A stretch of DNA of 64,000 nucleotides from Salinicola avicenniae. Its GTDB lineage: Bacteria; Pseudomonadota; Gammaproteobacteria; Pseudomonadales; Halomonadaceae. This document shows positions 7,981 through 40,888 of the stretch, piece after piece. Below the pieces are notes generated by a model, which was not told where the DNA came from, ran no database searches, and worked only from the letters and a program-made list of their open reading frames with translations. Numbering within the stretch: position 1 is the stretch's first letter; each line of letters starts with the position of its first letter. The DNA lies in the NCBI RefSeq assembly GCF_023736115.1, contig NZ_JAKQZC010000001.1, positions 558,001-622,000 of the forward strand, given 5' to 3'. A program made the translations under genes and the position numbers.

Positions 7981-8018
7981 AAAAAACGGGCGAGTGTTCA
8001 TGTTTCACTCGCCCGTTT
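7981..8018 (-). terminator. Rho-independent terminator of the trxB operon
   Basis: AAACGGGCGAGTG (7984-7996) and CACTCGCCCGTTT (8006-8018) form a 13-bp stem with a 9-base loop. On the minus strand it is followed by six T residues, so it ends transcription that comes from trxB. Confidence 0.88.
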
Positions 8019-8045: not shown

Positions 8046-9017
<972 letters not shown>

Positions 9018-18855: not shown

Positions 18856-18876
18856 AAATGTTATGATATAACATTG
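18856..18876 (+). promoter_or_regulatory. Zur box upstream of dksA2-zigA
   Basis: The core GTTATGATATAAC (18860-18872), flanked by AAAT and ATTG, matches the gammaproteobacterial Zur operator (AATGTTATAnTATAACATT) almost perfectly. It lies 27 bases before the DksA2-like start codon. Zur with zinc bound would repress here. Confidence 0.88.
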
Positions 18877-18903
18877 TTTATCGCCAGCGCCGAGGAGGTT
18901 GTC

Positions 18904-19338
18904 ATGGCTCGTCAGACACACATCGACAGCAACGCCAAGCTGTTGGCAATGCCAGAGCAGGACTACATGAACGCCGCGCAGCTTGCGTATTTCCGACGTC
19001 TTCTGACCGAGGAGCGCGCATCACTAGAATCGGCACTGGCGCAGACGCGCCAGACCATCGTCGACAGTCGCGGTGCCGGTGACGATGCCGATCTCGCCGC
19101 CAACGAAGAGACGCTGCGTCTGCTGCTGCGGCAGGCAGAACGCGAAACGCGTCTGCTGCGCAAGATCGACGTCACGTTGCGGCGGCTCGACGAAGGTGAA
19201 TATGGCTTCTGCGAGGAGACCGGCGCGCCAATCGGTCTGCAGCGCTTGCTGCTGCGCCCGACCGCGACGCTCTGCCTCGAAGCCAAGGAGCGCCAGGAGA
19301 TGCAGGAACATCATTACGCCAAGCGGCGCAGCGCCTGA
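18904..19338 (+). CDS. dksA2: DksA2-type zinc-independent DksA/TraR regulator
   Basis: A 144-residue DksA-family protein that binds RNA polymerase through its secondary channel and works with ppGpp. The coiled-coil tip motif DxxDxA (D60, D63, A65) is intact. The zinc finger is degenerate: instead of CxxC-X17-CxxC it reads CEET-X17-CLEA (C103, T106, C124, A127), the same pattern described for Pseudomonas DksA2, which works without zinc. The ATG at 18904 follows GAGGAGG. A strong Zur box lies upstream and a COG0523 GTPase gene follows, so it should replace DksA during zinc shortage. Confidence 0.9.
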   Translation: MARQTHIDSNAKLLAMPEQDYMNAAQLAYFRRLLTEERASLESALAQTRQTIVDSRGAGDDADLAANEETLRLLLRQAERETRLLRKIDVTLRRLDEGEYGFCEETGAPIGLQRLLLRPTATLCLEAKERQEMQEHHYAKRRSA

Positions 19339-19377: not shown

Positions 19378-20604
19378 ATGAATCCTTTACCCGTCACCGT
19401 GCTCTCCGGCTTTCTGGGTGCCGGCAAGACCACCGTGCTGAATCATCTGCTCAACAATCGCGACGGTCGGCGTATCGCCGTCATCGTCAACGACATGAGC
19501 GAGATCAACATCGATGCCGCGCTGGTCGAGCGCGAAGTCGAATTCAATCGCGCCGAAGAAAAACTGGTCGAGATGAGTAACGGCTGCATCTGCTGCACGC
19601 TGCGCGAAGACCTGCTGGTCGAAGTGAACCGGCTCGCCGACGAGGGTCGCTTCGACTATCTGGTGATCGAATCCACCGGCATCTCCGAGCCGCTGCCGGT
19701 CGCCGAGACCTTCACCTTCGAGGACGAAGAGGGCCGCAGCCTGTCGCAGGTCGCGCGACTGGATACGCTGGTCACCGTGGTCGACGGCGCCAATTTTTTG
19801 TCGCAGTACCATGAGGCCAAATCGCTGGCGGAAGCCGGTGAAAGCCTGGGCGAGGAAGACGAGCGCAACGTCGCCGACCTGCTGGTCGACCAGATCGAGT
19901 TCTGTGATGTGCTGTTGATCTCGAAGTCGGACCTAATTGCGCCGCGCCAGCTCGAGGAGCTCAAGGCGGTGCTGCGAACGCTCAATCCCGACGCCGAGAT
20001 CCTGCCGATCCAGCACGGTGGCGTCGCGTTGGACAAGGTGCTTGATACCGGACTGTTCAATTTCGACAAGGCGCAGCAGGCGCCGGGCTGGCTCAAGGAG
20101 ATGCGCGGCGAGCACGTGCCGGAAACCGAGGAGTATGGCATCTCCAGCTTCAGCTTCGAGGCGCGGCGGCCCTTTCATCCGCAGCGTTTTCACGATGTGC
20201 TCCACGGTGATTGGGGTGGCGGCAAGCTGTTGCGCTCCAAAGGCTTTTTCTGGCTTGCCAGCCGCCCACAGTTCGCCGGCCAATGGAGTCAGGCTGGTGG
20301 CATTGCTCACCACGGTTTTGCCGGGCTGTTCTGGCGCGCGGTGCCGGAATCGCGCTGGCCGCAGGAGCCCGACTATCTCGCCTCGATCCGGGAAAAATGG
20401 GAAGAACCGTTTGGCGACATGCGACAGGAGCTGGTCTTTATCGGACAAGGTCTGGATGAGGCCGAGATCCGTCGTCGCCTTGAAAGCTGCCTGCTCACCG
20501 ATGAAGAACTGGCGGGAGGCAAGGCGGCTTGGTTGAACCTGCCCGACCCCTTTCCCGATTGGGGAGTCGGTGTGCCCGCCGCTGACGACACCGCGCCTGC
20601 CTGA
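19378..20604 (+). CDS. zigA: COG0523 (CobW/ZigA-type) GTPase, zinc metallochaperone
   Basis: A 408-residue G3E GTPase with Walker A GAGKTT (residues 14-19), the metal-binding GCICC motif (Cys 70, 72 and 73), a Walker B-like ESTGISEP motif, and an SKSD base-recognition motif. The CobW C-terminal domain starts near residue 230 and ends in the DPFPDW segment seen in the ZigA/YciC group. Such proteins are thought to deliver zinc to client proteins under starvation. It follows dksA2 by 39 bases and shares its Zur box. A strong terminator follows. Confidence 0.9.
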
Positions 20605-20694: not shown

Positions 20695-21360
20695 TCAGCC
20701 GGGGTCAATCGCCAACATCAGACGCTGGCCCGGTGGCGAGCGATGGATCAAGCCGCCACCGGCATTGCCGATCCAGCCCGAGCCCTTCATCAATGCCAGG
20801 TCTCCGGCGGCCAGGCGTTGAATCTGGCTGGCGTCGCGGACGATATCGGGTTTGTCCGGAGACGCCGCGCCCAAGCCTCGGCGGTTGGCGGCATGCTCCG
20901 GCAGCCACTCGGTGCCGGGGCCGGCGTAGGTGGTGATAAAGCGAACGCCGAGATTGTCGACGTGGAAGCGGGGGCACATCGCACTGTTCAGCCGGCGCAG
21001 GCGGACACCGATCAGCGGCGCCTCGAACAAGTAGGCGATCGCCTCGGCCAGCAGGCAGACGTCGTCGACCAGGGCGTCCTCCTGTGGCGCTTTCAGCTCG
21101 CGTGCCAGATCGGCGCGCATGGCATCGTTGGGCGCGCCGCGCCAGGACCACTCGAGGGAGCGGGGTTGGCCCATTACGCCGTCGACGCTCGCCGCGATCT
21201 CGTCGGAGAGCGGTCGTCGCATCACGCTCAGCGTCATGCCGTCGTCGAAGATGCATAGGAGACGATCAATCGTGTCGCCGATAGCCCAGTGGGGCATGGC
21301 CGCCAATGGCGGGGAGGGAAGATCAATGGCTGGCATGAAGGCTCCGGTGGCGGTTGTCAT
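20695..21360 (-). CDS. DUF1826 family protein, Zur-linked
   Basis: A 221-residue soluble protein of the DUF1826 family. Conserved-looking pieces include LRRLNSAMCPRFHVDN, the TYAGPGTEWLPE segment and HRSPPGQRLMLAIDPG at the C-terminus. The two His-containing motifs are spaced as in a double-stranded beta-helix (cupin or 2-oxoglutarate oxygenase-like) metal site, which is my inference. The gene is divergent from a Zur-boxed dehydrogenase and beside zigA, a position in which DUF1826 genes are often found. A role in zinc starvation is likely; the reaction is unknown. Confidence 0.8.
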   Translation of the reverse strand: MTTATGAFMPAIDLPSPPLAAMPHWAIGDTIDRLLCIFDDGMTLSVMRRPLSDEIAASVDGVMGQPRSLEWSWRGAPNDAMRADLARELKAPQEDALVDDVCLLAEAIAYLFEAPLIGVRLRRLNSAMCPRFHVDNLGVRFITTYAGPGTEWLPEHAANRRGLGAASPDKPDIVRDASQIQRLAAGDLALMKGSGWIGNAGGGLIHRSPPGQRLMLAIDPG

Positions 21361-21458
21361 GGCGTTATCGTCCTCGTCGCCGCGACGCCAAGGTGACAGC
21401 GCGCGCGGAGAGGGGGCGTAGCGTTTCGGTGGAAATATCAGGGTTGTGCGTCGCCATA

Positions 21459-21479
21459 TTTGTTATGTTATAACATAAT
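21459..21479 (+). promoter_or_regulatory. Zur box between the DUF1826 gene and the alcohol dehydrogenase
   Basis: The core GTTATGTTATAAC (21462-21474) with TTT and ATAA flanks has both GTTAT and ATAAC half-sites intact. It lies between divergent genes, 99 bases from one start and 135 from the other, and may control both. Confidence 0.85.
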
Positions 21480-21613
21480 TAATTGAGCGTCGACGGTCCG
21501 CAGCGATCGTGCAGAGATGCCATGAGCTGGGCGGATGGCCTGCAGCAGGGTGTCCCGCACCGAATGAAACCGGCGACGTCACGGCGTCGTCCCAACGATT
21601 CAGGAGTAGAGTC

Positions 21614-22798
21614 ATGAAGACACGTGCCGCGATTGCCTGGGCGCCGAACCAGCCGCTCGAGTTCGAGGAGGTGGACCTCGAAGGCCCGAAAGCGGGCGAG
21701 GTCCTGGTGCGCATCGTCACCACCAGCCTGTGCCACACCGATATGTTCACGCTGTCGGGCAAGGACCCGGAAGGGCTCTTCCCCTGCGTGCTGGGGCACG
21801 AGGGCGTCGGCATCGTCGAGGAGGTCGGCAAGGGAGTCACCTCCGTGGTACCGGGCGATCACATTATCCCGCTCTACACGCCGGAAGACCCCAACTGCCC
21901 TTACATCCAGTCCGGCAAGACCAATCTGTGCCAGACCATCCGCAAGACGCAGGGCCAGGGCCTGATGCCGGACGGTACCAGCCGTTTCTCCTACAAGGGC
22001 AAGATGCTGCGCCACTACATGGGCACCAGTACGTTTAGCGAGTACACGGTGTTGCCGGAGATCGCCGTGGCCAAGATCAGCAAGGATGCGCCGCTGGCCA
22101 AGGCCAGCGTGATGGGCTGCGCGGTGCCGACTGGCATGGGCGCGGTGCGCAATACGGCCAAGGTCCAGCCCGGCGACACGGTCGCGGTTTTCGGCCTGGG
22201 CGCGGTCGGCATGGCGGTGATCCAGGGCGCCAAGCTGCAGGGCGCGGGGCGAATCATCGGTGTGGACATCAACCCGGCGAAATTCGCCCTGGCCGAGTCG
22301 CTGGGTGCGACCGAGTGTATCAATCCGGATGACTTCTCCGAGCCGCTGCACGAGGTCGTGATCGACATGACCAATGGTGGCGTCGACTTCTCGTTCGAGT
22401 GCGTGGGCAACGTGCGCCTGATGCGCGCCGCGCTGGAGTGCTGTCACAAGGGATGGGGCGAGAGCATCATCATCGGCGTGGCCGGTGCCGGCGAGGAGAT
22501 CGCGACCCGACCGTTCCAGCTGGTAACCGGGCGCGTCTGGAAAGGCTCGGCATTCGGCGGCGTTCTGGGTCGTTCCCAGCTGCCGGGCATGGTCGACGAA
22601 TGGCTCTCGGGGCGCTTCGACGTCGATCCGTACATCACCCACAACATGGCGCACGACCAGCTCAATACGGCCTTCGACCTGCTTCATCGCGGCGAGGCGA
22701 TCCGCTCGGTGATCCACTATCAGCCTCAGGAGACGATGACCGGCGACCTCCCCGGCACCATCGTCGGCCGGCATCAGAAGACATTGGAGCCAGCGTGA
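21614..22798 (+). CDS. Class III alcohol dehydrogenase / S-(hydroxymethyl)glutathione dehydrogenase paralogue with altered structural-zinc site
   Basis: A 394-residue zinc-type alcohol dehydrogenase close to FrmA/AdhC, with the motifs [10 protein letters not shown] and SGKTNLCQ and the NAD fold [10 protein letters not shown]. The catalytic zinc ligands are kept (C40, H62 with E63, C169). The structural-zinc site, four cysteines in normal class III enzymes (97, 100, 103 and 111 in that numbering), here reads D92, C95, I98 and C106, so two ligands are lost. The start at 21614 follows AGGAG. With a Zur box upstream and an ABC importer downstream, it looks like a zinc-sparing formaldehyde or alcohol dehydrogenase. 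The C-terminus runs about 20 residues longer than usual. Confidence 0.88.
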
Positions 22799-22848
22799 TA
22801 TTCAGACAATCCCGATCCCTTCAGCGGCGTCCGGTAAGCGGACGCCCG

Positions 22849-23865
22849 ATGAAGCGCATGCTGTGGCTGTTGGGGCTTGCCGCTGCTCTAGCGGCGCTGC
22901 CCGCGGTTGCCGGCAGTACGCACTACCCGCTGACGATCGATAACTGTGGCACGCCGGTGCGAGTCGCCGCGCCGCCCGAGCGAACCGTGACGGTCGGTCA
23001 GTCGGCGACCGAGACGCTCTATGCGCTCGGCCTCGCCGACAAGGTCGTCGGCACGTCAGTCTGGTTCACGCCGGTCTTGCCGCAGTTTCGCGAGGTCAAC
23101 GCGGGTATCGAGCGGCTAGCCGATAACGACCCAAGCTTCGAGTCGGTGGTCAACCGTCATCCGGATCTGGTGACCGCCCAGTTCGAATGGCATATCGGCC
23201 CGACCGGTAGCGTGGGCACCCGGCAGCAGTTCCGCGATCTGGGCATCGCCACCTATATCATGCCGGCGGATTGCGAGCACAAGGACAATTCGACGGGCGG
23301 CGACGGTACCCGGGCGGCGGCGTTTTCGCCCGACTCGGTCTACCAGGGTATCTCACAGTTGGCCGCGATCTACGACGTCCAATCCGCCGGCGAGCAGTTG
23401 ATCGCCTCGCTCAAGGCGAAAGAGGCCGCAGCGGTTTCGCAAGCCAAGGCGCTCGATCTGCCGGAGGATCTCTCGGCGGTCTTCTGGTTCTCGTCACCGG
23501 ACGATGGTGTAGCGCCCTACGTGGCGGGAAGAAAGGGGGCGCCGGGTTACATGATGAAGACGCTTGGCATCCACAACGTCATCGAGTCGGATGACGAGTG
23601 GCCGACCGTCGACTGGGAGACGATCGCCAGAGCCAATCCGGACATCATCGTGATCGCGCGGATGGATCGCCGGCGCTACCCGGCCGATTCGGTCGAGGCG
23701 AAGCTCGCATTCCTGCACAGCGACCCTGTCGCCAGCCAGATGATGGCGGTCAAGCAGGGGCATATCGTCGAGATGAATGCCCATGCGATGAGTGCCACGA
23801 TGCGCACGATCTATGGTCTCGAGACGTTGACCGACGCGCTGGCGACAATGTCCTTCCCGCGATGA
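22849..23865 (+). CDS. FecB/BtuF-type ABC substrate-binding protein, Zur-linked
   Basis: A 338-residue exported protein (signal peptide LWLLGLAAALAALPAVAG) of the COG0614 helical-backbone binding-protein family. Typical segments are GQSATETLYALGLADKVVG, the PDLVTAQ strand in the N-lobe and NPDIIVIARMD in the C-lobe. The likely start is the ATG at 22849; a GTG that overlaps the dehydrogenase stop at 22795 would give 18 extra residues. It follows the Zur-boxed dehydrogenase by 50 bases and precedes a matching permease and ATPase. A similar Zur-controlled system in Pseudomonas aeruginosa (PA2911-PA2914) suggests uptake of zinc, perhaps as a chelate. Confidence 0.83.
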   Translation: MKRMLWLLGLAAALAALPAVAGSTHYPLTIDNCGTPVRVAAPPERTVTVGQSATETLYALGLADKVVGTSVWFTPVLPQFREVNAGIERLADNDPSFESVVNRHPDLVTAQFEWHIGPTGSVGTRQQFRDLGIATYIMPADCEHKDNSTGGDGTRAAAFSPDSVYQGISQLAAIYDVQSAGEQLIASLKAKEAAAVSQAKALDLPEDLSAVFWFSSPDDGVAPYVAGRKGAPGYMMKTLGIHNVIESDDEWPTVDWETIARANPDIIVIARMDRRRYPADSVEAKLAFLHSDPVASQMMAVKQGHIVEMNAHAMSATMRTIYGLETLTDALATMSFPR

Positions 23866-24926
23866 TGGCGGTGAAGCCACAGCAGGCCAGCCCGCTTCGG
23901 TCTCGCTGGTTTTGGCTGTCGCCGCTGCTTCTGCTGGGCTCCTTGGTGGCGGGCGCGGCGATTGGCGAGACGACGATCCCGATAGACACCGTCCTGAAAG
24001 TCGTCGCCAACCGTTTCGTCGATGCCCATTATCCCATCGATCCCATCGATGCCGGTATCGTCTGGAACTACCGCTTGAGCCGCTCTGTCGTGGCGGGCTG
24101 CTGCGGTGCGGGGCTGGCATTGGCCGGTGTGGTCTTGCAGGCGCTGCTGCGCAATCCGCTGGCCGATCCCTACCTGATGGGGATTTCGGCGGGGGCCTCG
24201 ACCGGCGCCGTGCTGGTGGCCATCGCCGGATGGGGCGGCGGTGTTCTCTCGCTCTCCTCGGGGGCCATGGCTGGGGCGGCCGCTGCCTTCGGTCTCGTCA
24301 CGCTACTGGCCGGCGCGGCAGGTCGCGGAGTCGGTCGCAGCGGCAGTGCTGCGGGGGCGGGGGGCATCATCCTGGCGGGAATCGCCGGCTCGAGCCTGTT
24401 CAATGCGCTAACCGCTTTTGTCATCGCGCGCTCTGCCAGTGCCGAACAGGCACGCGGCATCATGTTCTGGTTGATGGGCAACCTCTCCGGGGTGCGCTGG
24501 GAGGATGCTTACTTCGCGGTTCCCGCCGTTCTCGTCGCGTTGTTGACCTGCCTCTGGCATCGGCAGGCGCTCGATGCCTTCACGTTCGGCACCGACAGCG
24601 CAGCGTCCATGGGAATTGCGGTACGGCCGGTGCGCGCCGTGCTGATCGGTACCGTGGCACTGGTCACGGCGGTGATGGTGTCCATGGTCGGTGCCATTGG
24701 TTTCGTGGGACTGGTTGTTCCCCACGCGATGCGCCTGCTGGTGGGTAGCCGTCACTGGCGCTTGGTGCCGGCTTCCGCTGTTGCTGGCGCTATTTTTCTG
24801 ATCGGTGCCGATGTGGTCTCGCGCATCATCGTCAAGGGGCAAGTGTTGCCGATCGGCGTGGTCACATCGTTGATTGGCGCACCGGTATTCGCGGTCATTC
24901 TGATACGGGGAGCGACATCACGGTGA
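23862..24926 (+). CDS. FecCD-family ABC transporter permease
   Basis: A 354-residue membrane protein with eight to ten hydrophobic segments and the FecCD signatures NYRLSRSVVAGCCGAGLALAG, RNPLADPYLMGISAGA and GAIGFVGLVVPHAMRLLVG (the last one contacts the ATPase). It overlaps the binding-protein stop (ATGATG; the second ATG at 23865 is equally possible) and the ATPase start at its end, so the three form a tight transport operon under the Zur box at 21459. Confidence 0.9.
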   Translation: MMAVKPQQASPLRSRWFWLSPLLLLGSLVAGAAIGETTIPIDTVLKVVANRFVDAHYPIDPIDAGIVWNYRLSRSVVAGCCGAGLALAGVVLQALLRNPLADPYLMGISAGASTGAVLVAIAGWGGGVLSLSSGAMAGAAAAFGLVTLLAGAAGRGVGRSGSAAGAGGIILAGIAGSSLFNALTAFVIARSASAEQARGIMFWLMGNLSGVRWEDAYFAVPAVLVALLTCLWHRQALDAFTFGTDSAASMGIAVRPVRAVLIGTVALVTAVMVSMVGAIGFVGLVVPHAMRLLVGSRHWRLVPASAVAGAIFLIGADVVSRIIVKGQVLPIGVVTSLIGAPVFAVILIRGATSR

Positions 24927-25687
24927 ATCTGACCGTCGACAATGTGGGGTGGCGGATCCGTGGCCGCCCGCTGCTACAAGACGTGAGCTTCGAGGTCCAG
25001 TCTGGTGAGACACTGGGACTCATCGGGCCCAACGGTTCTGGCAAGACCACGCTGTTACGGTTATTGGCAGGACTCGAGAAAACCAAGCAGGGTACCGTCT
25101 ATTTGGGCAATCGGGATATCAGTCGTCTGCCCCGGAGGGAGGTAGCTCGAACGGTGGCTTTCGTCGAACAGCAGGCGAGTACGGAAGAACGCATCAACGT
25201 CTACCAGGCTGTCAGTCTAGGGCGTACGCCGTTTCTATCTCCGCTGCGGCCGTGGGCGCTGGAGGACGAGCAGATCGTTGCCTGCGCCCTGCACGACGTG
25301 GGGATGTCGCAATTGGCCAACCGTGCCTGGCATACGTTATCCGGCGGTGAGCGTCAGCGTGCGCATATCGCCAGGGCACTGGCGCAGCAGCCAGAGATTC
25401 TTCTGCTCGACGAGCCAACGAATCATCTGGATATTCGCCATCAGCTGTCGCTGCTGCAGCTCGTCGATCATTTGCCGGTCACCGTGATCGTCGCACTCCA
25501 CGATCTCAACCAAGCCATGATGTGCGATCGAATCGGCGTCATGGAGGAGGGGCGGCTAGTCGATATCGGAACGCCGCGAACGGTGCTTACCGCGGCGAGG
25601 CTGCGTCAGACCTTCGGCGTACATGTCGATATCTTGCCGGCGCCCGGTGAAGCGAATCCGGTCATGCGCTTCCGCCAGGCGCTCTGA
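24923..25687 (+). CDS. ABC transporter ATPase of the FecE/BtuD type
   Basis: A 254-residue cytosolic ATPase. Walker A is GPNGSGKTT (35-43), the signature is LSGGERQR near residue 140, Walker B is ILLLDEPTNHLD near 160, and the H-loop is VALHDLNQA. It pairs with the FecCD-like permease directly upstream with a 4-base overlap. No outer-membrane receptor gene is found next to it, so if the cargo is a metal chelate, the TonB receptor must be encoded elsewhere. The stop overlaps an unlikely plus-strand frame that is not called. Confidence 0.92.
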   Translation: MNLTVDNVGWRIRGRPLLQDVSFEVQSGETLGLIGPNGSGKTTLLRLLAGLEKTKQGTVYLGNRDISRLPRREVARTVAFVEQQASTEERINVYQAVSLGRTPFLSPLRPWALEDEQIVACALHDVGMSQLANRAWHTLSGGERQRAHIARALAQQPEILLLDEPTNHLDIRHQLSLLQLVDHLPVTVIVALHDLNQAMMCDRIGVMEEGRLVDIGTPRTVLTAARLRQTFGVHVDILPAPGEANPVMRFRQAL

Positions 25688-26016: not shown

Positions 26017-26838
26017 TTACCCCGCAACGCACCGGCGAGATGCTACCCGTGTCAGCCGACTGAGAGCATAGATCCCGAAGCTCAGTCCGGCGATGCAGGA
26101 GGATGCCGGCAGATTGGCGTAATAGGAGAGGATAAGCCCACCCATTGCTTCGCCAAGCGCGAGCAGCGCAGTGAGAGCCAGCCCCATGCCAACACGCCCG
26201 CTCCACGCCTGTGCGGCGCTGGCAGGACCGATGAAGATGGCAAAGCTCAAGAGCGCGCCGATCACCGGCACCGCGATGGCGGAAGCGGCGCCCAGCAACA
26301 GTAAGAACAGCGTATCGATCAGTGAGACCGGGATGCCTCTGGCGCGGGCGGCATCCGGGTTGAGGCTGGCGAAGCGCAGCGGACGGAAGAGGGCAACCAG
26401 TCCGGCCAGCACGACGAGCGAGGTGATCGTGATCCAGCGGATCTGGCTGGCGTCGATCCCGAAGACGCTGCCGAACAGGATGCCGATGGCGGCGTTGGCA
26501 TTGGCACTGTAGAGATTGACGAACAGCGCGCCGAGACCCAGAGAAAACATCAGGATCATTCCCACGCTGATGTCACGCTCGCCGACATGGCGTCCGGTCC
26601 AGGCCATCAACAGTGCCGCCCCCAGGACGAAGACCAGTAACCCGAGCATCGGTTCTGCGCCGATCAGCGAGGCGCCGGCCGCGCCGGCGAAGCCGATGTT
26701 GCTCAGCGCATGCGAACCGAATGCCTGGCGTCGCAGCACTACAAAGTAGCCCACCAGCGAGCCCATCAGCGCGATCAACGTGGTGGCGATGAAGGCGTTC
26801 TGCATGAAGTCGTAGCGCAGAAACCCGGGCATCAGCAT
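26017..26838 (-). CDS. znuB: Zinc ABC transporter permease
   Basis: A 273-residue ABC-3 family permease with about eight membrane segments. It contains the MGSLVGYFVVLRRQAFGSHALSNIGFAG region, the ATPase-contact ALRPLR-like loop FRPLRFASLNPDAARARG, and the GALLSFAIFIGPASAAQ helix. Its start overlaps the end of znuC. Gene order znuA-znuC-znuB under a Zur box supports high-affinity zinc import. It ends with a short basic tail. Confidence 0.88.
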   Translation of the reverse strand: MLMPGFLRYDFMQNAFIATTLIALMGSLVGYFVVLRRQAFGSHALSNIGFAGAAGASLIGAEPMLGLLVFVLGAALLMAWTGRHVGERDISVGMILMFSLGLGALFVNLYSANANAAIGILFGSVFGIDASQIRWITITSLVVLAGLVALFRPLRFASLNPDAARARGIPVSLIDTLFLLLLGAASAIAVPVIGALLSFAIFIGPASAAQAWSGRVGMGLALTALLALGEAMGGLILSYYANLPASSCIAGLSFGIYALSRLTRVASRRCVAG

Positions 26839-27632
26839 TGGCCCACCGCTTGCAGCCGACGCTGGCTCCCCTCGAACACGAAGCGGCGTCCGCCTTCAAT
26901 GATGACGCGCATTGGCGTGCCGTAGAGCTCGCTCAGCGTGCGGTCGCAGATGATCTCGTCGACGCTGCCGGCGCGGCCGCGCCCTCCGGCCAGGTAAAGC
27001 ACCTGATCGCAAACCGGTAGTACCGGGTTGATATCATGAGTGCTGAATATCACCGCGATACCGCGCCGGGTCAGTGCGTTGGCCACCGACACGATACGGT
27101 CACGCGCAGCCGGGTCGAGCTGCGATAGCGGCTCGTCGAGCAGAATCAGGCGTGGCTCGTTGACCAACGCCTGGGCAATCAGCAGACGTTGACGCTGACC
27201 ACCGGATAGCGTCGACAGGCGACGTCGAGCCAGGTCTCGGGCGTCGACCGTCTCCAGGGCCGCATCGACGGCCTGCAACTGCTGCCTGCGACCGCTCGGC
27301 AGCGGCATGCCCCAGCGGTGCGATTGATAGGCGGCGCTCACGAATTCACGGCCGACCAAAGCATCGTCATGGAGCAGTCGGGAGACTTGGGGGACATAAG
27401 CAATCCGACGTCTGGCATGGCATGGACGACCGCCCATCACTGTGAGCGTTCCCGCACGCAAGGCCACTAGCCCGAGCAGGGTGTCGAACAGGCTGGTTTT
27501 GCCGGCGCCGTTGGGGCCGACCAGCGCGGTGAAGCTGCCGGGGGAAATCTCGAACGATAGCGCTTCGAATACGCTCGTCGTGCTTTTGCCAGCAGTGATA
27601 TCCAGGGCTCGAACCAGCGCATTATCCGTCAT
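26832..27632 (-). CDS. znuC: Zinc ABC transporter ATP-binding protein
   Basis: A 266-residue ATPase. Walker A is VGPNGAGKTSLF near residue 38, the signature is LSGGQRQRLLIAQAL, Walker B is LILLDEPLSQLDP, and the H-loop lies in FSTHDINPV. The ATG ending at 27632 overlaps the znuA stop by 11 bases; further upstream the frame is an artefact within znuA. It powers zinc import with the products of znuA and znuB. Confidence 0.9.
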   Translation of the reverse strand: MTDNALVRALDITAGKSTTSVFEALSFEISPGSFTALVGPNGAGKTSLFDTLLGLVALRAGTLTVMGGRPCHARRRIAYVPQVSRLLHDDALVGREFVSAAYQSHRWGMPLPSGRRQQLQAVDAALETVDARDLARRRLSTLSGGQRQRLLIAQALVNEPRLILLDEPLSQLDPAARDRIVSVANALTRRGIAVIFSTHDINPVLPVCDQVLYLAGGRGRAGSVDEIICDRTLSELYGTPMRVIIEGGRRFVFEGSQRRLQAVGQC

Positions 27633-28536
27633 GATTCGCGCTCGGCCCGGCCTCGTCCAGCGCCCGGTCGATGGCGCGGAGCTGTTCGATCTGCCACTCG
27701 ACGTAATTTTCGCCATGCAGCGGAATGGCGCTGACGCCGACGGTCGGGATGCCAGCCTCTCTGGCAATGCCGACCTGATTTTCCGTCAGGCGGTTATGGA
27801 CTTGCAGGTTGTAGATCAACAGGTCGACCTGATGCTGCTTCAGCGCATCCGTAAACGTCGCGACCTGCTGAGCGCTGGGCTGGTGGTTGTCCATCGAGGC
27901 GAACTGGATGTCGTGATAGCGATTTTCGTAGCCGATCAGATCGATCATGTAGCTATAGACCGGGACCGTAGCAGTAATGCTCAGGTTGGGATGATCGGCG
28001 ATCAACTGCTGAACGGCGCCGTAGACCGGCAGCAGCGATTGCTGGAAAGCGGCCAGGTTGGCCTGATAGTCATCGGCGTTGCCCGGGTCGAGCGCTTTCA
28101 GCGCGTCAGTCACACGGCTTGCGGTGGCGAGCATGATCTGCGGTGAGTAGAACAGGTGCGGGTTGTTGTCCGCCATGACCTTATGGCTACCAGCGTCGCT
28201 GGCGCGGACGACCCGGCGCTCATCACCGCCAGTGCTCTCGAGCAGCGGCTCCATCCAGCCATCGAATCCGAGACCATTGAACACCACCAGGTCGGCTTGC
28301 TCCAGATCCCTGGCGATCCTCGGATCGGCTCGGAAAGCGTGTGGGTTGACGTCCGGGCTATCCAGCAGCGAGACGACATCAACATGCTCGCCGCCAATCG
28401 ACTTGACCATACTACCGTAGCTGCTCTCCGCGGCGACGACGTGAATAGCGGCTTGGGCGGAGCTGACACCGGCAACGGACAAAAGCGAGAGCGCGAGAAG
28501 CGTAGAGAGCGAACGGCGAGATAGTGGCATGGCCAT
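27622..28536 (-). CDS. znuA: Zinc ABC transporter substrate-binding protein (divergent ZnuA)
   Basis: A 304-residue periplasmic binding protein with signal peptide STLLALSLLSVAGVSSAQA. It is COG0803 (cluster A-I) like, with His in DVNPHAF and NPHLFYS as the first two metal ligands. It has no His-rich loop, and at the place of the third ligand it has VPVYSYM where ZnuA has a His. A His in MDNHQP may take part instead. So it belongs to a diverged subgroup, and metal preference is inferred from the Zur box 30 bases upstream and the znuC/znuB partners. Confidence 0.82.
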   Translation of the reverse strand: MAMPLSRRSLSTLLALSLLSVAGVSSAQAAIHVVAAESSYGSMVKSIGGEHVDVVSLLDSPDVNPHAFRADPRIARDLEQADLVVFNGLGFDGWMEPLLESTGGDERRVVRASDAGSHKVMADNNPHLFYSPQIMLATASRVTDALKALDPGNADDYQANLAAFQQSLLPVYGAVQQLIADHPNLSITATVPVYSYMIDLIGYENRYHDIQFASMDNHQPSAQQVATFTDALKQHQVDLLIYNLQVHNRLTENQVGIAREAGIPTVGVSAIPLHGENYVEWQIEQLRAIDRALDEAGPSANHDG

Positions 28537-28565
28537 GGTTCCAGATGAAAAGCGGTATAGATATT

Positions 28566-28587
28566 ATACGTTATAACATAACATTGT
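28566..28587 (-). promoter_or_regulatory. Zur box upstream of znuACB
   Basis: The core on the plus strand is GTTATAACATAAC (28570-28582), flanked by TATAC and ATTGT. The two half-sites GTTAT and ATAAC are exact. It lies 33 bases upstream of the znuA start on the minus strand. Confidence 0.85.
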
Positions 28588-39210: not shown

Positions 39211-39888
39211 ATGGAACATCGCTTTTCCCATGTCGAGCCGGCGTCGCTTGGCGGCAGCGTCTACACGCATCTGCGCGAGGCGCTGATCGGCGGGCAGCTG
39301 AAGCCCGATGATCGCCTGCGCATTCGCGAGCTGGCGGAGCAGTTCGGCACCAGCGTGACGCCGGTACGCGATGCCATCCTGCGCCTGTGCAAGGAGCAGG
39401 TGCTCGAAATGCGTACGGCCCGCGATATCCGTGTGCCGCTGATCGATGTGGCCCAGTACGACGAGATCTACCGTCTGCGGCTGGAACTCGAGGGGATGGC
39501 GGCGGCACTGGCGGCGGCGGCTATCGACGATGCCGCTGCCCGCCAGCTACGCGAGCAGGTCGGGCAGAACCACCGCGCCATCGTCGAAGGTGACATGGCA
39601 CGGGCGATGAAGCTCAACCAGCAGTTCCATTTCGCGCTGGCGGGACTGGCCGGTTCTCCCATGCTCGAACGCTTCATCGACAGCCTCTGGATGCGCGCCG
39701 GGCCGGTGATCGCACTGGCCTATCGTGCTTTCTCCGAGCGCGTCGCGATTCAGCACCACTGGGAAGTGCTCGAGGCGCTGGAGTCACGCGACGCCGAGGC
39801 GGCACGCCTGGCGATCCGCCGCGACATCGAGGATGGCTACGACATGATGGTGCAGTTCCTGACCTCGCTTCGCCAGGATCGACGCTAG
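39211..39888 (+). CDS. GntR-family (FCD) transcriptional regulator
   Basis: A 225-residue regulator with a winged helix at about 15-75 (YTHLREALIGGQL, LRIRELAEQFGTSVTPVRDAILRL) and an all-helical FCD ligand-binding domain with the metal His pattern (RLRLELEGMAA, then NQQFHFAL, then HHWEVLEALE). The start at 39211 is favoured over a TTG at 39193. It is divergent from the deacetylase-kinase-PLP operon and is the natural candidate for its control. Its last four bases overlap the convergent folE2 gene. Confidence 0.86.
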   Translation: MEHRFSHVEPASLGGSVYTHLREALIGGQLKPDDRLRIRELAEQFGTSVTPVRDAILRLCKEQVLEMRTARDIRVPLIDVAQYDEIYRLRLELEGMAAALAAAAIDDAAARQLREQVGQNHRAIVEGDMARAMKLNQQFHFALAGLAGSPMLERFIDSLWMRAGPVIALAYRAFSERVAIQHHWEVLEALESRDAEAARLAIRRDIEDGYDMMVQFLTSLRQDRR

Positions 39889-40847
39889 CGGGCCATCCGG
39901 TTCGGTCGCGCCGAGGTCGATGGGAAATCGCGCTCGATCCGGGCCACCGCATCGTGAGCGTGCAGGCTCTCGGCGTGCGTGATGTCGATACGATAACCGT
40001 CGACACCGGGCTGCGCGTCGCAACAGCCGCCGAGACGGCGTGCCGCATCCTCGCAGAACAGCAGATTGGCGCCGTTGCGCTCGGCGAAGGCCTGCTCGTC
40101 GAGGCGTTTGACCAGCGTCTGCACCGGTGTCTGCAGGGTCTCCTCGAAATCGACGATGCGAGCGGCGATATCGAGCGATGCTGACGCGCCGAGGCTCAGT
40201 GCGATCTCGGCACGGCTGCGCTGGCTGTGTGGCGTGGGGAAGCTGCCGTCTTGCTCGATCCAGCGGGCCAGTACATCGGGGGCGCGCGCGGCATCCGGGT
40301 GTTCCTCGGCCCAGGCGCGCCAGTCGCGTGCCATGGCGTGTCGCGCCAGCGCCGCCGAGCAGGGGCAGGTCGACGAATAGTCGAGCGACAGCGTCAGTAC
40401 GGTCTGCAGGTCGCCAAGCGTGCCGCAGAGCGTGAGCGTGACCGGATAGTGCCGCCAGCCGCTGGCCTCACTCAACAGCGCCGGCCGCCGTAGCGGCAGA
40501 TCGAAATGCAAGGCGAGTTCGAGACGTTCGCTGATCCCCGCCTGACTCTCGAGCAGCGAAACACCGAGCGCGTGGAAGGTATCGACACTCAGTGGCGTCT
40601 CATCGAGCCGGTCGAGCAGCCGATAGAGCCGCGACATGTGAATGCCACGATGGCCGGTAGCCAGGTCCACGCCGACGTCCACGGTGACAGGCAGTCGCGT
40701 GCCGTCCTCCAGTTGAAGACGCGAGGCGATACCGCGCATGCCGACGTGTTGCAGCGCGCGCGTCTCCGCGCTTGGCGATGACCCGTCTGAGGAGGAAGCG
40801 GCAGCTCGGCTGGCGGCCACATCGGGAAGAGGAGAACGTTGCAGCAT
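39885..40847 (-). CDS. folE2: GTP cyclohydrolase FolE2 (type IB)
   Basis: A 320-residue enzyme that makes dihydroneopterin triphosphate for folate. It has the FolE2 marks: the active-site Cys in a YSSTCPCS segment, preceding LTLSLD, HSQRSRAEI, and the late CEDAARRL region. FolE2 accepts several metals and replaces zinc-dependent FolE (type IA) when zinc is short. A Zur box 25 bases upstream of the start fits this role exactly. It stands apart from the other Zur genes, by 12 kb. Confidence 0.94.
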   Translation of the reverse strand: MLQRSPLPDVAASRAAASSSDGSSPSAETRALQHVGMRGIASRLQLEDGTRLPVTVDVGVDLATGHRGIHMSRLYRLLDRLDETPLSVDTFHALGVSLLESQAGISERLELALHFDLPLRRPALLSEASGWRHYPVTLTLCGTLGDLQTVLTLSLDYSSTCPCSAALARHAMARDWRAWAEEHPDAARAPDVLARWIEQDGSFPTPHSQRSRAEIALSLGASASLDIAARIVDFEETLQTPVQTLVKRLDEQAFAERNGANLLFCEDAARRLGGCCDAQPGVDGYRIDITHAESLHAHDAVARIERDFPSTSARPNRMAR

Positions 40848-40867
40848 AAGAGACCGGGTTTGATAAG

Positions 40868-40888
40868 TTATGTTATTTCATAACAATA
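40868..40888 (-). promoter_or_regulatory. Zur box upstream of folE2
   Basis: The core GTTATTTCATAAC (40872-40884) has exact GTTAT and ATAAC half-sites, with a less conserved centre. It is the fourth such site in the window. Confidence 0.8.

Follow-up and report, generated by a model that had tools for sequence, protein, structure and literature searches.

The principle of zinc sparing is well established and is exemplified by DksA2, FolE2, and the C-minus ribosomal proteins. To our knowledge, most zinc-sparing proteins are zinc-free replacements of a zinc protein. Haas et al. (2009) named nine families of Zur-linked paralogues (HisI, PyrC, Cam, HemB, CysRS, ThrRS, an amidase, QueD, and DksA), and the same paper mentions DUF1826 in the legend of a figure showing COG0523 clusters under Zur control (PMC2770081). 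Alcohol dehydrogenase is not among the nine families, and the word "dehydrogenase" is absent from the main text of that paper, as distinct from its supplements. It is likewise absent from the main text of a study of zinc depletion in Paracoccus denitrificans (PMC5387054).

Alcohol dehydrogenases have been tied to Zur in other bacteria. One review describes Zur-regulated enzymes as often zinc-free paralogues and gives alcohol dehydrogenase as an example, but its table lists two alcohol dehydrogenases, Corynebacterium adhA and Neisseria adhP, with adhP in the activation column (PMC6103462). Corynebacterium adhA resembles the gene described here, a putative Zur target, in being an alcohol dehydrogenase tied to Zur. 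However, C. diphtheriae adhA is reported to be raised by zinc and Zur (PMC6711530), which is the opposite of the direction proposed below. The C. glutamicum enzyme is reported to be zinc dependent, and purified Zur reportedly failed to bind its candidate site.

Here, we describe a class III alcohol dehydrogenase from Salinicola avicenniae that probably is a Zur-repressed zinc-starvation isozyme of FrmA, predicted to carry one (catalytic) zinc per subunit instead of two. Like DksA2 and the C-minus ribosomal proteins, it is a Zur-linked paralogue that has lost structural-zinc cysteines, and a DksA2-type gene is among its neighbors. Unlike those proteins, it keeps its catalytic zinc ligands, and so it would spare half of the zinc rather than all of it. 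As judged from sequence, this site-lost FrmA joins two known kinds of protein, the class III dehydrogenases and the Zur-controlled zinc-sparing paralogues. The original prediction had been made in the belief that no Zur-controlled, structural-zinc-free FrmA paralogue has been described, and a full-text literature search by title and abstract, with subscription papers, supplements, and regulon databases outside its scope, returned no description of a Zur-linked class III form.

A class III dehydrogenase with an altered structural-zinc site

The window, i.e., the whole stretch of 64,000 nucleotides that was analyzed, carries the dehydrogenase gene on the forward strand at 21614..22798. The open reading frame listing and its translation give a protein of 394 amino acids (ATG at 21614, stop codon ending at 22798), which scores 639.7 bits against TIGR02818, the NCBIfam equivalog model for S-(hydroxymethyl)glutathione dehydrogenase/class III alcohol dehydrogenase (cut-off, 543.95 bits). 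The original prediction had placed Asp, Cys, Ile, and Cys at structural-zinc positions 92, 95, 98, and 106 of a class III dehydrogenase and had found the catalytic residues C40, H62, E63, and C169 intact, and alignment bears out both statements. The stretch from D92 to C106, where the structural-zinc site used to be, is encoded at 21887..21931 on the forward strand. With DCIC at the structural site instead of four cysteines, the protein is a variant and not a standard class III member.

Its best solved relatives, whether ranked by sequence or by fold, are class III/GSNOR enzymes from animals, from plants, and from an alga. A predicted model, built on a 43-sequence alignment (mean pLDDT, 84.1), overlays human GSNOR (3qj5) with a TM score of 0.91 at 1.3 Å; average pLDDT is 76 to 81 in the lobe formed by residues 91 to 110 and falls below 50 at residues 298 to 306 and 384 to 394. 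The enzyme shares with FrmA and human ADH5/GSNOR a predicted fold, the catalytic ligands, the presumed glutathione positions, and a score above the equivalog cut-off. It differs from them in having lost two (in two lineages, three) of the four structural-zinc cysteines and in its clade-specific catalytic-side residues, C-terminal tail, and link to Zur.

A search for a second, four-cysteine FrmA in the same genome was successful. This canonical protein (L002; CCCC) is 66% identical to the window dehydrogenase, scores 735.4 bits against TIGR02818, and is encoded beside an S-formylglutathione hydrolase gene on the same strand. Its best 18-mer against the Zur-box consensus within 400 bp matches at 9 of 18 positions, and no Zur-type box with at least 14 of 18 matches occurs in its 19-kb surroundings (L137).

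To place the variant among its relatives, 163 loci were reduced, by removing repeats, to 124 distinct proteins, 42 site lost and 82 canonical; loci with a best alignment score below 900 (other dehydrogenases and loci lacking the gene) were excluded. The structural positions read DCIC in 40 of the 42 site-lost proteins and DCIS in the other 2, while all 82 sampled canonical relatives read CCCC. D92 and C95 are present in all 42, C106 is present in 40, and position 98 is always Ile. Among the 80 matches listed for our own query, the 7 with at least 79% identity are site lost (6 DCIC and 1 DCIS), and the other 73, all with at most 70% identity, are CCCC. On the tree, the site-lost proteins form one clade (SH-aLRT of 100 by a quick method; long stem, 0.55), and the site-lost label takes a single change across the 124 proteins, compared with a mean of 35 when labels are shuffled. 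Scattered, convergent losses are not seen in this sample. A degenerate or misread gene was also considered and rejected, since the 41 other clade members are open frames with 79 to 94% identity to the window protein. The two proteins that also lack C106, from Erwinia sp. S63 and genome G084, appear on the tree to have lost it independently; in G084, the adjacent dksA-type protein (L132) has likewise lost one more cysteine.

Asp and Cys are common zinc ligands. Because Asp can ligate zinc, the term "half lost" describes the ligands seen in the sequence and not metal content, and the conservation of D92, C95, and C106 leaves room for a weaker three-ligand metal site. It is an unlikely alternative that Asp92, Cys95, and Cys106 still bind metal (zinc more weakly, or Fe or Co) and that the change tunes affinity. 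Against this idea stand the invariant Ile at position 98, the further loss of C106 in two lineages, and, near the window gene, a DksA paralogue whose former zinc finger also retains just two cysteines.

Catalytic pocket, C-terminal tail, and spread of the clade

The catalytic Cys, His, Glu, and Cys are kept in all 42 site-lost proteins, as are D51, E53, R110, and K279, which we take to correspond to the residues that bind glutathione in the human class III enzyme. With these presumed glutathione-binding positions intact throughout the clade, the substrate of the site-lost form is probably unchanged. The surroundings of both catalytic cysteines carry residues specific to the clade, namely, T36, L39, M167, A170, and P172 in 42 of 42 proteins and V166 in 40. 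Farther along the chain, V198 occurs in 41 proteins and M200 in all 42. Also, 41 of the 42 site-lost proteins are 387 to 394 amino acids long, owing to a C-terminal tail, compared with 369 to 376 amino acids for canonical relatives, and LPG is present in 34 of the 42 tails. These residues and the tail may adjust how tightly metal is held, how the cofactor binds, or how stable the protein is, and the substitutions next to the two catalytic cysteines hint at a possible shift in activity or substrate.

Such changes fit a second alternative, under which the paralogue is made during zinc starvation mainly for copy number or for a special substrate (e.g., other alcohols, S-nitrosoglutathione, or another thiol adduct), with the loss of structural zinc being tolerated rather than selected. 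Haas et al. offer copy number as an explanation for those Zur-linked paralogues whose zinc ligands are intact (PMC2770081). We regard this alternative as unlikely, considering that the presumed glutathione-binding positions persist in every member, that D92 and I98 are fixed clade-wide while both replaced cysteines occur in 82 of 82 canonical relatives, and that the change falls on the very clade that is linked to zinc.

Of 201 genomes searched in the window's family, 20, our own included, have the site-lost form (E value of at most 1e-200). So do 9 of 295 genomes in the family that surrounds Salipiger bermudensis, S. bermudensis included (1e-188), and 2 of 398 sampled across the phylum (1e-188), both from the window's family and one of them our own. 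Plasmids from Tritonibacter, Paracoccus, Sagittula, and Gluconobacter carry it as well, with 9 matches of at least 78% identity; the 8 examined are all DCIC, the remaining one (H9; 78.5%) having been left out. Canonical FrmA proteins of the window's family group mostly with Halomonadaceae. Within the site-lost clade, members of this family sit at three places, and Erwinia, Pararhizobium, and Gluconobacter sit apart from each other, which suggests, on the basis of the tree, that the form has spread horizontally.

A second class III gene is present in 33 of 35 carrier genomes, and all of the second copies inspected for their cysteines (L002, L155 to L163, L188, and L189) are CCCC. In G160 and G823, a search at 1e-120 returned no second class III gene, and so in these two genomes the site-lost form is, as far as seen, not an extra copy.

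Zur-type sites and zinc-starvation genes

The original prediction had also reported a Zur box upstream of the gene, and one is indeed there. The box, GTTATGTTATAACATAAT, lies at 21462..21479 (no strand assigned), between the dehydrogenase gene and a divergent DUF1826 gene (20695..21360, reverse strand; Pfam PF08856), and is detected both by consensus and by a profile of published sites. It has one mismatch to GTTATGTTATAACATAAC, which we take to be the Zur-box consensus. Allowing up to three mismatches, this pattern has 3 matches in the 64-kb window and none in any of 100 shuffles. A chance box was thus rejected, as a control pattern was also absent from the whole of our genome.

The box overlaps a promoter-like match on the forward strand at 21451..21479 (TCGCCA-17-CATAAT; 9 of 12 consensus positions), which is the sole such match in 21340-23000 and a weak one, with 0.3 expected by chance. 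The distance from the box to the start of the dehydrogenase gene is 134 bp, and that to the start of the DUF1826 gene, at 21360, is 101 bp; given its place between the two, the box may serve both genes. No terminator-like site was found in 21340-23000, and so the dehydrogenase and the importer genes downstream perhaps form one transcription unit. These importer genes, all on the forward strand, encode a periplasmic binding protein directly 3' of the dehydrogenase (22849..23865; Peripla_BP_2, EitA-like but below that model's cut-off), a FecCD-type permease (23862..24926), and an ABC ATPase (24923..25687; EitC-like, below that model's cut-off). Similar EitABC/FecCD-type genes lie near the dehydrogenase in three relatives (L023, L025, and L123), and the importer may be a Zur-linked metallophore or corrinoid importer.

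The remaining neighborhood has a zinc theme. On the forward strand lie a gene for a DksA paralogue (18904..19338), named DksA2 type from its context, which is preceded by a Zur-type box (18860..18877), and a gene for the COG0523 zinc metallochaperone GTPase ZigA (19378..20604; 697.7 bits against NF038288, cut-off of 600). Only two cysteines are left in the former zinc finger of the DksA paralogue (FCEET...TLCLEA), and the L132 copy has only one. On the reverse strand lie ZnuABC-like zinc importer genes (26017..28536), whose binding protein passes Pfam ZnuA and whose ATPase and permease resemble AztA and AztB, both below cut-off, and the gene for GTP cyclohydrolase FolE2 (39885..40847; 248.2 bits against NF010200, cut-off of 215); each has a Zur-type box upstream (28565..28582 and 40867..40884, respectively). 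COG0523, DUF1826, HisI, and DksA are common to the loci seen here and the clusters of Haas et al. (PMC2770081). A conserved order of the window's genes was considered as an explanation and rejected: the neighbors differ from one relative to another, and what they have in common is chiefly the zinc theme.

Across relatives, sites were scored with a profile made from five of the six P. denitrificans sites in Table 7 of PMC5387054, norC being left out. Within 300 bp upstream, a score of at least 12 bits is reached by 30 of 42 site-lost genes and 5 of 82 canonical genes, a contrast that kinship among the rows inflates. At thresholds of 6, 8, 10, and 12 bits, the counts are 33, 32, 32, and 30 of 42 for the site-lost genes and 27, 11, 5, and 5 of 82 for the canonical genes. 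By the 18-mer consensus, at least 14 of 18 positions match within 400 bp in 21 of 43 site-lost loci and 1 of 74 canonical loci. Among the 20 carrier genomes in the window's family, 18 show 12 to 17 matching positions in that interval, the other two being those of L112 and L113. In Paracoccus sp. MA (L177), the exact published pden1338 sequence begins 51 bp before the dehydrogenase gene. An ad hoc pattern for the alphaproteobacterial sites, GTTAYNNRTAAC, did not rise above shuffles and was dropped. Two Marinomonas loci (L048 and L066) have a palindrome, GTTATATTATAAC, upstream of a canonical four-cysteine frmA; two Marinomonas genes are among the five canonical ones with at least 12 bits, and L048 is the only canonical locus of the 74 to match at 14 of 18 positions.

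Genes of the zinc-starvation response (COG0523, DUF1826, DksA2, znu/azt, and others) occur no more than 6 kb from the dehydrogenase gene in 30 of 43 site-lost loci and in none of 74 canonical loci (Fisher, 5e-18, which kinship among the rows inflates), a count in which the short-flanked canonical loci L155 to L162 were left out, the site-lost loci include a same-protein pair (L175 and L176), and 10 of the 74 canonical and several site-lost loci are shorter than 13 kb, with 6-kb flanks partly missing. For instance, the Sagittula stellata locus contains genes for a Fur-family repressor, a zinc ABC transporter, DUF1007, and DUF1826, and that of Paracoccus versutus contains two genes for GTP-binding proteins, one of them ZigA-like (597.8 bits; cut-off, 600), along with DUF1826 and aztABCD. 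In Gluconobacter, folE, hisI, zigA, the dehydrogenase gene, and a carbonate dehydratase gene stand in a row, with a Fur-family gene nearby. A gene labeled "zur" in L025 encodes a protein with 70% identity to the S. stellata repressor, yet it falls below Pfam FUR. No marker gene lies within 6 kb in 13 of the 43 site-lost loci.

The original prediction had asked whether the Asp/Ile form always has a Zur box. This is not shown directly upstream, where 12 of the 42 genes have no 12-bit site (L021, L023, L172, L112, L113, L165, L168 to L171, L175, and L166); it holds almost throughout for a wider link, as a 12-bit site, a marker gene, or both accompany 41 of the 42 proteins. Of those without an upstream 12-bit site, L021, L023, and L172 have weaker profile matches at -46 or -47; L112 and L113 lie behind a dksA-type gene with a box ahead of it (seen in L131 and L132; in L131, the box is at 7992 and the gene at 8078-8497); L165 and L168 to L171 are preceded by a DUF1826 gene (as L181 and L184 to L187 show); and L175 lies behind folE-hisI-zigA. 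The one exception to the wider link, L166/L182 in G823, has an upstream region that is mostly assembly gap. In L182, the dehydrogenase gene adjoins cobalamin-biosynthesis genes, which encode tetrapyrrole-methylase and CbiG domains.

That the window box regulates only DUF1826 or the ABC importer 3' of the dehydrogenase, which would then be a bystander, is highly improbable: the box is indeed nearer to the DUF1826 start than to the dehydrogenase, but a box also precedes the dehydrogenase in seven family genomes with no DUF1826 or eit-like gene in the stretch examined (L118, L124, L126 to L129, and L135), and in 12 alphaproteobacterial rows the best match lies 46 to 51 bp before the dehydrogenase start, 9 of these scoring at least 12 bits.

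In many site-lost loci, a gene for a DJ-1/AraC regulator of the GlxA family is divergent from the dehydrogenase gene (L019 to L023, L025, L133, L134, L136, L172 to L174, and L177 to L180). The best NCBIfam matches of the L021 regulator are FtrA and GbdR, below cut-off. Such a regulator may add a second input, e.g., the sensing of methylated amines or aldehydes.

Proposed role under zinc starvation

The reading that we prefer, a zinc-starvation isozyme of FrmA, starts from the ligand loss, the intact catalytic and presumed glutathione positions, the single clade, and the tight link to Zur sites and zinc-starvation genes. It would entail that structural zinc is absent, that the substrate is that of FrmA, that Zn-Zur represses the gene, and that the cell benefits. 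The zinc-sparing interpretation in the original prediction is in this respect supported by the comparison of sequences.

When zinc is plentiful, Zn-Zur would occupy the box and so cover the promoter, leaving the work to the housekeeping four-cysteine FrmA. As zinc falls, Zur would leave the box, and the paralogue would be made along with proteins for zinc import, zinc chaperoning, and other forms of zinc sparing. The paralogue would adopt the normal class III fold with a structural lobe that needs no zinc, leaving one catalytic zinc per subunit. In this state, the paralogue would sustain the oxidation of S-hydroxymethylglutathione, and possibly the reduction of S-nitrosoglutathione, and its product would feed the S-formylglutathione hydrolase encoded beside canonical frmA.

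If this is true, a two-zinc enzyme would exemplify a half-sparing strategy, in which structural zinc is given up and catalytic zinc is kept, and formaldehyde (or S-nitrosoglutathione) metabolism would join the functions defended under zinc starvation. Because canonical and sparing forms coexist in one genome, their zinc occupancy, affinity, and fitness effects are directly comparable. A more far-reaching reading, tentative and on balance doubtful, is that the horizontally spread clade of class III dehydrogenases in Gamma- and Alphaproteobacteria is a zinc-starvation FrmA with one zinc and a pocket retuned, through the clade-specific residues around both catalytic cysteines, to remain metallated or to function at very low free zinc, or to use another metal. 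If so, formaldehyde detoxification would be a protected function of the zinc-deficiency response.

Finally, the S. avicenniae genome encodes two Fur-family proteins. One passes the Fur model, and the other (L191) is closest to the Zur model PRK11639, at 145.8 bits (below the cut-off of 167). With up to two mismatches, the box pattern has 10 matches in this genome, corresponding to 7 places once strands are merged, and the control pattern has none. One Zur-like box lies near a gene for a ZnuC-like ATPase (G000:C3:665915; L145), and another lies near an open reading frame resembling, by eye, a His-containing exported protein (G000:C5:463529; L146).
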